DNA from: Gammaproteobacteria bacterium
GTDB taxonomy: Bacteria; Pseudomonadota; Gammaproteobacteria; SZUA-152
Length of the DNA: 34,409 nucleotides
NCBI GenBank assembly: GCA_011051685.1
Contig: DRKQ01000199.1
Coordinates: 1-34,409, forward strand
Direction: 5' to 3'
Below are positions 7,958 to 17,093 of this stretch, piece by piece. The position numbers and the translations under genes are program-made. The first letter of the stretch is position 1; each line of letters starts with the position of its first letter. A model generated the notes under the pieces. It did not search any database and was not told the origin of the DNA. It worked only from the letters and a program-made list of their open reading frames with translations.

Positions 7958-8027
7958 TTAAGTTTGCTTCTTTAAGCGCGAGGAACTTCAAAGGGAGGGT
8001 TTGGACATGTGATTACTATTAACCTAG

Positions 8028-8183
8028 CCATTAAATAGATCATCCTGATCTATGTTAATGGGTGTCCGTGAAATACGGGCGCAACTGTGAGAAGTTGCTT
8101 ATATTTCACGGTCTTGCATTGGCTTGCGCCAATGGCGGCACATCCGTGTGCCGCACTATTAACCCGGCAATCTTAATTGCCGG
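8028..8183 (+). other. Array of five consecutive hairpins (possible structured RNA or mRNA element)
   Basis: Five strong inverted repeats follow one another with almost no spacing. H1: 15-bp arms 8028-8042/8046-8061 with one bulged base and a 3-base loop. H2: perfect 10-bp outer stem 8066-8075/8102-8111 enclosing a 6-bp stem 8081-8086/8093-8098. H3: CATTGGC/GCCAATG 8117-8134 with loop TTGC. H4: GCGGCACA/TGTGCCGC 8135-8154 with loop TCCG. H5: CCGGCAAT/ATTGCCGG 8164-8183 with loop CTTA, followed by TTTAATAA. The last three all have 4-base loops. It lies between the ketosynthase stop and the exported-protein gene. It could be an attenuator or 5' leader, a 3' stabiliser of the operon mRNA, or an independent small RNA. 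H5 lacks a proper T-run, so simple termination is doubtful. Confidence 0.75.
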
Positions 8184-8188
8184 TTTAA

Positions 8189-8207
8189 TAACATTAAATA
8201 ACATTAA
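8189..8207. repeat. Short direct repeat TAACATTAA x2
   Basis: TAACATTAA occurs at 8189-8197 and 8199-8207, just past the hairpin array. ACTATTAACC is also repeated at 8015-8024 and 8155-8164, flanking most of the array. Function unknown. Confidence 0.6.
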
Positions 8208-8256
8208 CCCATATTTATAACAGTGACGTTACTTATTGTATAACAGGAGGTTGGCC

Positions 8257-9048
8257 ATGAAGCATCATATAAAAAGTTATTCTTTTATTATATTGTCGTT
8301 AATTGCTGTCTTGTTTCTTTCCCATGGGGCAGTGGTTTATGCGAATGATAAACCCAAAAAGATGGGTAAGACTGCGGACTTTGATAAAATGCTTACCTAT
8401 GTCAGTTCTGCACCCTTTTATTCTGTTGATGGCTCATTCCTTGTTGACGGAATGATTGCTGGTGATGGTCTTCACTTTCAAAGAGAAGTACTTGGGCGGA
8501 GCGATGAAGAAATCGCTGAATATGAGCAGCAAGCCAAGGATTTCTTTTTGCAGAGATTTGGTGTCGATACACAATCCGGCGACGTTTATTTTACGGGCTT
8601 CGAGGTTATGCCGGAAATTGAGTATCATGTGGTTTTCGAAACGGGGGCACGTACTCCCAAAAAGGGCTGGCCAGTCCACGACGGAGGCTGGATTACGGTT
8701 GTGACAAACCCTGAAGGAATTACTCTCGGAGGGGAGTTCTCTGGTGTGCACGTTCCGCCTAACACGATGTTCGTTAAAGGCAATTACAAAATCGTCAAAA
8801 CAAAGAAGACTGGCGATGGCGAGATTGTCAAATCCATCATCATCGATTACCAGTCCAGCAAACCTATTCTGATGGAGTCAGATGGCTCCTTTGCGGTGAG
8901 TTGCGAGTTATTCAATGCAAAGTGGGGTGAAGGTCAGGCTATTGGCGCTACCTTGCCGATCGTTTTAAGCGATGGCCGCATGGTTTATAACACGCGCAAT
9001 GTTCTGACTTTCCCGCCTTTTGGAAAAACTGCTGAGCCTCTTCGTTAA
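8257..9048 (+). CDS. Exported protein of unknown function
   Basis: 263 residues; I do not recognise a family. The start is ATG 8257, placed by a perfect AGGAGG at 8245-8250. A signal peptide is clear: MKHHIK, a hydrophobic core at about 9-22, and a probable cleavage after VYA (residue 29). The mature part is about 234 residues, with alternating charged and beta-prone segments, one Cys (SCELFN) and no CxxC, lipobox or obvious transmembrane segment, so a soluble periplasmic or secreted protein is expected. A helix-rich stretch (GRSDEEIAEYEQQAKDFFLQ) precedes a mostly beta C-terminal half. It stands alone behind the hairpin array and has its own terminator. Its AT-rich composition matches the upstream operon, so it may belong to the same acquired block. 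Relation to the pathway is speculative. Confidence 0.8.
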   Translation: MKHHIKSYSFIILSLIAVLFLSHGAVVYANDKPKKMGKTADFDKMLTYVSSAPFYSVDGSFLVDGMIAGDGLHFQREVLGRSDEEIAEYEQQAKDFFLQRFGVDTQSGDVYFTGFEVMPEIEYHVVFETGARTPKKGWPVHDGGWITVVTNPEGITLGGEFSGVHVPPNTMFVKGNYKIVKTKKTGDGEIVKSIIIDYQSSKPILMESDGSFAVSCELFNAKWGEGQAIGATLPIVLSDGRMVYNTRNVLTFPPFGKTAEPLR

Positions 9049-9521: not shown

Positions 9522-9878
9522 ATGAACATCTCCGATCTCCTCTCGGACGAGGCCATCCTGGCTGAAATCGGTGTCCGCATGGCCCGCCGGAGGTTGGATA
9601 TGGGGCTGACCCAGGCGGAATTGGCTGAGCAGGCTGGGGTGGCCAAGCGTACGGTGGAGCGCATCGAGGCGGGATCTTCGGCCCAGCTGTCCAGCCTGAT
9701 CCGGCTTTTCCGGGTTTTGGAACTCTTGCCGAGGCTGGATCTGTTGTTGCCTGAACCTGCACCCAGCCCCATGGAGTTGCTCAGGCACAAGGGCAAGCAA
9801 CGCAAACGGGCGCCAGGTCGTCGCAAGGCGGGAGGGATGGCAGAGGACAAGCCCTGGACGTGGGGAGATGACGAGTGA
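9522..9878 (+). CDS. hipB: HipB-like XRE-family antitoxin
   Basis: 118 residues. A Cro/C1-type helix-turn-helix spans about 16-70 (MARRRLDMGLTQAELAEQAG, VAKRTVERIEAG, LSSLIRLFRVLELL). The C-terminal ~40 residues are basic and proline-rich (KGKQRKRAPGRRKAGG) and probably disordered, as in antitoxin tails. AGGTGA at 9510-9515 supports ATG 9522. The stop overlaps the GTG start of hipA by 4 bp, so the two are translationally coupled. It should neutralise HipA and repress the operon at the palindrome just upstream. The strong match in arrangement and length to HipBA pairs makes this a confident call, although a few solitary XRE regulators look alike. Confidence 0.87.
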   Translation: MNISDLLSDEAILAEIGVRMARRRLDMGLTQAELAEQAGVAKRTVERIEAGSSAQLSSLIRLFRVLELLPRLDLLLPEPAPSPMELLRHKGKQRKRAPGRRKAGGMAEDKPWTWGDDE

Positions 9879-11182
9879 GCAGCGTGGCCGAGGTGCGTCT
9901 GTGGGGGCGCACCATTGGTGCGGTATCCCTGGCCGATGGCGAGGACGTGGCCAGCTTTGAATATGAACCGGCCTTCGTCAATAGTGGTATCGAGGTGTCG
10001 CCTCTGGTGATGCCGCTGGCCCGGCAGGTGTACCGTTTCCCCGAGTTGTCACGGGAGACTTTTCATGGTTTGCCGGGGCTGCTGGCGGATTCCCTGCCGG
10101 ACACTTTCGGCAATACCCTGATCAATGCCTGGCTGGCTACCCAGGGCCGCACACCGGACAGCTTTAATGCCGTGGAGCGCTTGTGTTACACGGGATCACG
10201 GGGCATGGGGGCGCTGGAGTTCACGCCGGCCATCGGTCCCGGGGCGCAGCAGGCCAGGCAAATCCAGATCGATCGTTTGGTGGCGCTGGCGTCCGAGGTG
10301 CTGACCCAGCGCAATCATTTACGTGCTTCTTTTGCCGATACGGAAAAGGAGCAGGCCCTGGCAGATATCCTGCGCGTGGGCACGTCCGCCGGTGGGGCGC
10401 GGGCAAAGGCGGTCATTGCCTGGAATCCCTCCACCAACGAGGTGTGCTCCGGGCAGGTGGCAGCGGCGGAGGGCTTTGAGTACTGGTTGTTGAAATTCGA
10501 CGGTGTGGCGGGCAACCGTGACAAGGAGTTGGAAGATCCGCAGGGGTACGGGGTTATTGAGTACGCCTACTATCTCATGGCGAAAGACTGTGGCATCGAG
10601 ATCAATGAATGCCGCTTGTTCGAGGAACATGGCCGTCAGCATTTCATGACCCGGCGCTTCGATCGTACCGCCAGCGGCGAAAAGTTGCACATGCAGTCCC
10701 TCTGCGCCCTGGCGCATTTTGACTATAACCTAGCCGGGGCCTACAGCTACGAGCAGGCCTTGTTGGTGATGCGTCAGCTGGGTTTGCCCATGGCGGATAT
10801 CGAGCAACAGTTCCGGCGTATGGTATTCAATATCATGGCCCGCAATCAGGACGATCACGTCAAAAACATTGCCTTTCTCATGGATAAGACGGGGCGCTGG
10901 TGGCTGTCGCCGGCCTTTGATCTGACCTACAGCTACAACCCGGCAGGCCGTTGGACCGCGCAGCATCAAATGAGTCTGAACGGGAAACGTGATCACTTCA
11001 CCCTTGATGATTTGCGGATTGCTGCACGAACGGCCCTGCTGAAACGCGGCCGCATGGAAACCATTGTCGGCGAGGTGCGGGAGGGGGTTTCTCACTGGCC
11101 CGGGCATGCACAGACGGCTGGGGTGCCAAAAGCCTGGCGCCAACAAATTCAACGAAACCTGCGATTATCGGTGTTTGACTGA
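9875..11182 (+). CDS. hipA: HipA-like Ser/Thr kinase toxin
   Basis: 435 residues, close to the E. coli HipA length. The N-terminal subdomain (about 1-115) contains the HGLPGLLADSLPDTFGN block typical of HipA. The kinase core has the glycine-rich GTSAGGARAKA (169-179), the strand YWLLKFDG (203-210) with a candidate ATP-binding Lys207, the catalytic NQDDHVKN (324-331) and the metal-binding SPAFDL (345-350). HipA toxins phosphorylate a translation factor such as a glutamyl-tRNA synthetase and stop growth until HipB binds them. The start is GTG 9875, overlapping hipB. All kinase motifs look intact, so the toxin is probably functional. The target is not predictable from sequence. Confidence 0.92.
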   Translation: MSSVAEVRLWGRTIGAVSLADGEDVASFEYEPAFVNSGIEVSPLVMPLARQVYRFPELSRETFHGLPGLLADSLPDTFGNTLINAWLATQGRTPDSFNAVERLCYTGSRGMGALEFTPAIGPGAQQARQIQIDRLVALASEVLTQRNHLRASFADTEKEQALADILRVGTSAGGARAKAVIAWNPSTNEVCSGQVAAAEGFEYWLLKFDGVAGNRDKELEDPQGYGVIEYAYYLMAKDCGIEINECRLFEEHGRQHFMTRRFDRTASGEKLHMQSLCALAHFDYNLAGAYSYEQALLVMRQLGLPMADIEQQFRRMVFNIMARNQDDHVKNIAFLMDKTGRWWLSPAFDLTYSYNPAGRWTAQHQMSLNGKRDHFTLDDLRIAARTALLKRGRMETIVGEVREGVSHWPGHAQTAGVPKAWRQQIQRNLRLSVFD

Positions 11183-16731: not shown

Positions 16732-17093
16732 TGGTGGAGCTGGCGGGAGTCGAACCCGCGTCCGCGAATACTCCGCCTTTGGATCTACATGCTTAGCCGA
16801 GTCTTTTGATTTAACCGCACGCTACCCGACTGGCAGGGAAGACGTACGACGAGTTCAGTCAGGTTTTAACGACTTGGCCCTGAACATGCCTCATCGCGAT
16901 CTTGTGAGAGTCGACCCCGGTGATCTGAGTGCACAAGCACACGTCAGGCCGAGGGCTTTACGCAGGTTTTTAAGCTGCTAAAGCGTAGTTGTCGTCGTTG
17001 GCAACTATAAAGTTTGCAATTGGATTTACGAGGTAATTGCTCCTCGGCATGCACCTCAGGTTTCGTGACCCACGTCGAAGCCAGGTCAGCCCC
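16732..17093 (-). ncRNA. ssrA: tmRNA (transfer-messenger RNA)
   Basis: 362 nt. The tRNA-like ends pair as an acceptor stem: 5' GGGGCTG (17093-17087) with 3' CAGCTCC, then A and an encoded CCA (16734-16732). The 5' part has the usual GGTTTCGACGTGGGTCACG-like block (here GGCTTCGACG). The 3' part has the T-arm GGGTTCGACTCCC. The internal reading frame at 17002-16970 encodes ANDDNYALAA and a TAA stop. With SmpB it rescues stalled ribosomes and tags the nascent peptide for proteolysis. A probable -10 box TACAAT lies at 17120-17115 on the minus strand, about 22 bases before the mature 5' end, in keeping with processing by RNase P. The smpB gene lies just upstream on the same strand. Confidence 0.97.
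16970..17002 (-). other. tmRNA tag-peptide reading frame (ANDDNYALAA)
   Basis: Resume codon GCC at 17002-17000, then AAC GAC GAC AAC TAC GCT TTA GCA GCT and TAA. The tag ends in the protease signal YALAA. It differs from the E. coli tag by Asp for Glu at the fourth position. Confidence 0.93.

Follow-up and report, generated by a model that had tools for sequence, protein, structure and literature searches.

Five hairpins between two coding regions

The window, that is, the whole stretch of 34,409 nucleotides analysed here, carries a ketosynthase operon and, at 8257, a gene for an exported protein; five hairpins stand end to end between them (8028-8190). Further along lie an HTH_3 gene and then a HipA-like gene, a toxin-antitoxin pair of the HipBA type located on the downstream side of the element (9522-11182, + strand), and a tmRNA gene (16732-17093, - strand; Rfam RF00023, E 5.9e-94). 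The contig belongs to a gammaproteobacterial draft genome of 3.36 Mb in 308 contigs.

A sequence-only reading of the window had described five tandem hairpins that chance could not easily produce. All stems were located where that reading placed them, and the region folds more strongly than expected: the folding energy of 7980-8256 is -95 kcal/mol, against -68.2 ± 5.1 kcal/mol in shuffled sequences (z = -5.27, 0 of 200 shuffles as low). The ten-base repeat that it reported, ACTATTAACC, is indeed present at 8015 and 8155. What it overlooked is that the stretch is a repeat with inverted ends, that the last hairpin extends to 8190, and what the ten-base repeat means, since its first occurrence marks the element's 5' end and its second forms the left arm of the 3' palindrome. 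It knew of no matching RNA family; likewise, Rfam returned no family over the hairpin stretch, the best matches on the element lying far below the gathering score, and a search at and below threshold in the window and its relatives yielded nothing convincing. The element and its parts are as follows.

8019-8188, + strand (the strand with the TCC loops): whole element, 170 nt, with limits common to copies in unrelated flanks; 192.9 bits with covariance model R1
8017-8018, no strand: left TA target-site duplication, from the sequence and by analogy with occupied and empty Halomonas sites; TA here in 44 of 57 copies
8019-8028, + strand: 5' terminal inverted repeat TTAACCTAGC; family consensus TTAACCYGGC
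8028-8061, + strand: hairpin H1, 15 bp, bulged G at 8054, loop ATCC/TCC
8066-8111, + strand: hairpin H2, 10-bp outer and 6-bp inner stem, loop GTGAGA
8117-8134, + strand: hairpin H3, 7 bp, 4-base loop TTGC
8135-8154, + strand: hairpin H4, 8 bp, 4-base loop TCCG, its TCC kept in nearly all copies
8164-8183: core of hairpin H5, 8 bp, 4-base loop
8157-8190, no strand: full terminal palindrome of H5, TATTAACCCGGCAAT-CTTA-ATTGCCGGTTTAATA, 15 positions with one mismatch
8189-8190, no strand: right TA target-site duplication, from the sequence and the empty Halomonas site; TA here in 42 of 57 copies

The right arm of H5 is the 3' terminal inverted repeat, and its left arm repeats the 5' end. The window copy has the inverted ends TTAACC...GGTTTAA, the latter being GGTTAA in most copies; the family ends TTAACCYGG and CCRGGTTAA stand at the termini of most copies, with TTAACC in 29 and GGTTAA in 31 of the 57, and TA flanks both sides in 33. 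The element measures about 170-176 nt, and no conserved reading frame was noticed in it.

Dispersed copies and insertion at TA

The outcome that the sequence-only reading had itself held to speak against its proposal, a palindromic repeat dispersed over the genome, is what we found. A DNA search detected copies in the same genome that are up to 88% alike and have unrelated flanks, and a covariance model built from ten copies (R1) identified 14 there at E ≤ 1e-10; it also detected complete copies in congeneric genomes and in a second genus belonging to the same family. A scan with the H1 core added matches in Halomonas elongata 153B, Gilvimarinus xylanilyticus, G. chinensis, the Ectothiorhodospiraceae MAG NORP100 and one further MAG. 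The number of matches is 16 in H. elongata 153B and about 40 in G. xylanilyticus. About 11 of 61 genomes of the genus Halomonas carry the element. In a sample of the class, matches at E ≤ 1e-8 occur in at least 29 of 274 genomes and in at least 24 of 221 genera, a lower bound, given that ten candidates per genome were scored, and one that takes in sub-families. Searches of plasmids, phages and IMG/VR gave no match to the element, and a literature search by sequence words and host genera, in which subscription journals were thinly covered, returned nothing relevant. Inspected copies lie between genes or at gene edges, in both orientations relative to their neighbours. Median pairwise identity is 0.82 among the copies of the window's genome and 0.92 among those of Halomonas; the former are old and the latter younger.

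One H. elongata copy, between sppA-like and HAD-like genes (names read from the flanks), could be compared with its empty counterpart. The occupied site reads ...AACTTGCCTA[TTAACC...GGTTAA]TAACCGTG, and the empty site of G114, a genome of the genus Halomonas, reads ...AACGTGCTTA|ACCGTG; seen closely, CTTA|ACCG without the element stands against CCTA[TTAACC...GGTTAA]TAACCG with it. The single TA in G114, the one fully clean empty site that was read, indicates that insertion took place at a TA, which was duplicated in the process. A second relative, G118, is also empty at this site, in diverged form (CTCA|GCC). In the window's genome another copy separates hscB from hscA, with a spacer of 255 nt, where several congeners have 77 nt; here the evidence is confined to length, as the spacers are too diverged for a base-exact empty site. 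An empty site for the orthologous copies of a further genus (g3, below) was sought and not found. We conclude that the element inserted with duplication of TA, in the manner of IS630-type MITEs.

In sub-families whose ends differ, the hairpins still follow one another from H1 to H5 and have similar loops. One of them ends in (A/G)GGAAGCTCTGA, likewise adjoining TA, and another contains GGCTGTTGAAAAA. Among nine hand-read sub-family examples, which we chose ourselves and use descriptively, the TCC loop is found in H1 of eight and in H4 of all nine. H1-H4 units repeat head to tail in G. xylanilyticus (G097) and in genome G042. In the former, a tandem array on contig C1 (554218-554944) consists of about five near-identical units spaced by about 140 nt, which is the distance between the two ACTATTAACC in the window. 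The latter has tandem arrays of H1-H4-like hairpins with other sequences at four loci, one of them immediately following a tRNA gene. Three diverged copies in the window's genome hold about 50 extra nucleotides (CGGTTCTGGCTCCCTGCTTCACCCTACCTCC...) in the H2 region, and this longer form is perhaps the ancestral one. Parts of the element also occur singly in that genome: the 34-bp palindrome H5 alone at five loci and H1 alone at three. Inspection of these solitary copies, on the idea that they might bound an autonomous element, revealed no IS pair.

Constraint on the fold

Covariation, which the sequence-only reading had proposed as a check of its hairpins, is strong across copies. In an alignment of 57 copies, two-sided changes affect 54 of 63 pairs and 479 cells, compared with 84-107 cells in slid controls; 87.5% of cells pair, against 34-42% in the controls, and the covariation score is 0.369, against 0.06-0.09. 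Because the model guided this alignment, the pair counts are inflated, yet the excess over the slid controls is still large. The first ten copies, aligned without structure, show two-sided changes in 15 of 63 pairs, compared with 4-6 in slid controls. By hairpin, such changes touch all 14 modelled pairs of H1, 7 of 7 in H3 and 8 of 8 in H4 (57 copies). Unpaired positions are among the best-kept ones, namely the TCC of the H4 loop and the C of the H1 loop, and across sub-families the loop letters persist where stems and ends change. The cluster is thus a dispersed repeat with a conserved fold.

A copy that has stayed in place appears to behave differently. In another genus (g3), a copy occupies the same site in three species, where the query with its flanks is 81-89% alike. 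Of the 22 pairs that have changed at this site, 14 are broken; the pairs retained there number 51-53 of 63, versus 57-60 in five dispersed copies, the sample of decay being one locus. It seems, then, that the fold erodes in a copy that stays where it is and is preserved in the family at large. From this loss of pairs we infer selection on spreading, not on a host function, which suggests that the folded shape matters for the spread of the element.

Mobilisation and relation to known repeats

The element is short and non-coding, has many dispersed copies and terminal inverted repeats, and shows a target duplication by comparison with an empty site, all of which are general traits of MITEs; TA as target and its duplication are those of MITEs derived from IS630/Tc1-mariner elements, such as RUP. 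Taken together, the TA duplication and the inverted ends suggest mobilisation in trans by a transposase of the IS630/Tc1-mariner kind, a mode proposed for RUP (PMC2229807); most likely a TA-targeting DDE enzyme of this type moved the element. No DDE_3 (IS630) gene was found in the window's genome, H. elongata 153B, G. xylanilyticus or genome G123, so that no present-day mobiliser is seen there. MAG assembly may conceal insertion sequences. A genome of the same genus (G002, contig C44, 1027-2135) contains an intact-looking IS630-family insertion sequence with an open frame of 345 aa and the ends TA|TTAACCGTCTCA, which have only the TTAACC hexamer in common with the element (TA|TTAACC). Strings similar to these ends, TCGTCTCAAAATAATTGC, come immediately after some copies (three loci) in the window's genome.

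Other readings of the hairpin row were weighed against this one. A REP/BIME-like array mobilised by RAYTs (REP-associated tyrosine transposases), which recognise single-stranded hairpins, would account for rows of hairpins and for the tandem H1-H4 arrays of Gilvimarinus and G042, which look BIME-like. The window's genome has five Y1-transposase genes, one of them about 730 bp from a copy; a reading frame lies between the two, the remaining four have no adjoining copy, and so none of the five is directly adjoined by one. By eye, the feet of the hairpins in the window bear no GTAG/CGTC tag. TA is duplicated at insertion, whereas target duplication is not known for single-strand transposition by RAYT-type enzymes. 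We consider this reading unlikely.

Still harder to credit is that the minus strand would act as an RNA decoy for CsrA/RsmA through the GGA in the apical loops of H1 and H4. On the minus strand H4 reads ACA-CGGA-UGU, which comes near the CsrA consensus. The loop letters TCC, whose complement is GGA, belong to the best conserved ones and reappear in sub-families that have unrelated stems, and an array in G042 weakly resembles RsmW, below threshold (E 0.09). However, the orientation of copies relative to adjacent genes varies, and the loops of H2, H3 and H5 lack GGA. TwoAYGGAY, sought for its likeness to AYGGAY-type loops on the minus strand, is absent from the Rfam results at and below threshold, and the consulted passages of an Alcanivorax sRNA paper on CsrA decoys (PMC9788540) describe no such elements. 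What the sequence-only reading had implied, a discrete structured RNA acting on a neighbour, here the ketosynthase operon or the exported-protein gene at 8257, stands as far as the structure goes, which is real and constrained, and fails in that this structure is part of a mobile element found at unrelated loci. The strong fold, the covariation and the two neighbours on the + strand would suit such an RNA; the dispersed copies in both orientations, the pair loss at the resident g3 site and the lack of an Rfam match leave local regulation unsupported and, in our view, highly improbable.

We therefore regard the cluster as probably one old copy of a short, non-autonomous, MITE-like element with inverted ends that duplicates TA, is moved in trans and has its fold kept by selection. 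This kind of element is already known, and it is the constrained five-hairpin interior that sets the present one apart from ordinary MITEs. Ends suffice for an ordinary MITE, so that the IS630 model by itself gives no reason to expect a covarying interior. As a model based on the ends leaves the interior unexplained, we suggest that propagation involves a reading of the folded strand: some protein would probably recognise a folded single strand, either lagging-strand DNA or a transcript, presumably through the conserved loop letters, and the four internal hairpins and terminal palindrome would be kept by selection on the copies that spread. More tentatively, the families may form a superfamily of gene-less mobile elements of gammaproteobacteria, with a four-hairpin core (loops RTCC, GTGNGA, TTGC-like and TCC), varied inverted ends and tandem repeats, spreading via folded single-stranded DNA or RNA read by a protein; we hold this to be possible rather than probable.

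Bacterial MITEs are commonly pictured as a pair of ends around an interior of no consequence. In this family the interior is well conserved: it shows covariation between genera, retains its loop letters through changes of stem and ends, and seems to decay when a copy remains in place. This points to a spreading step in which folded DNA or RNA is read, an idea that can be tested in H. elongata and G. xylanilyticus, where copies are plentiful. In annotation, elements of this type need to be masked before hairpins between genes are assigned to regulatory RNAs.

Among known repeats, BOX of Streptococcus pneumoniae is modular and its middle part can be tandem. The tandem H1-H4 units of G097 and G042 recall this trait; BOX differs in its unrelated host phylum and in the arrangement of its modules. 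RUP (IS630-Spn1), Correia/NEMIS and ERIC, like the present element, are 100-200 nt long and mostly intergenic, with inverted ends, TA termini and duplication, and are trans-mobilised or presumed to be so (PMC2229807); they are described as long stem-loops formed by end-to-end pairing, whereas here five separate hairpins stand in a row, with conserved loops, covarying interior stems and other ends. The CIR repeats of Caulobacter share independent arms and the absence of a single end-to-end stem (PMC2229807), but have two arms instead of five, a GANTC motif in one loop and an alphaproteobacterial host. REP, BIME and REPIN sequences are also rows of short palindromes between genes of gammaproteobacteria (PMC3733652, PMC3116915); unlike them, the window copy shows no GTAG/CGTC tag, copies in its genome directly flank no RAYT, and the element duplicates TA. 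On contig C142 of the window's genome, the repeats neighbouring a Y1/RAYT-like gene resemble GTGGGAGCGCCTTTCCAGGCGC, and such repeats also occur near some copies of the element.
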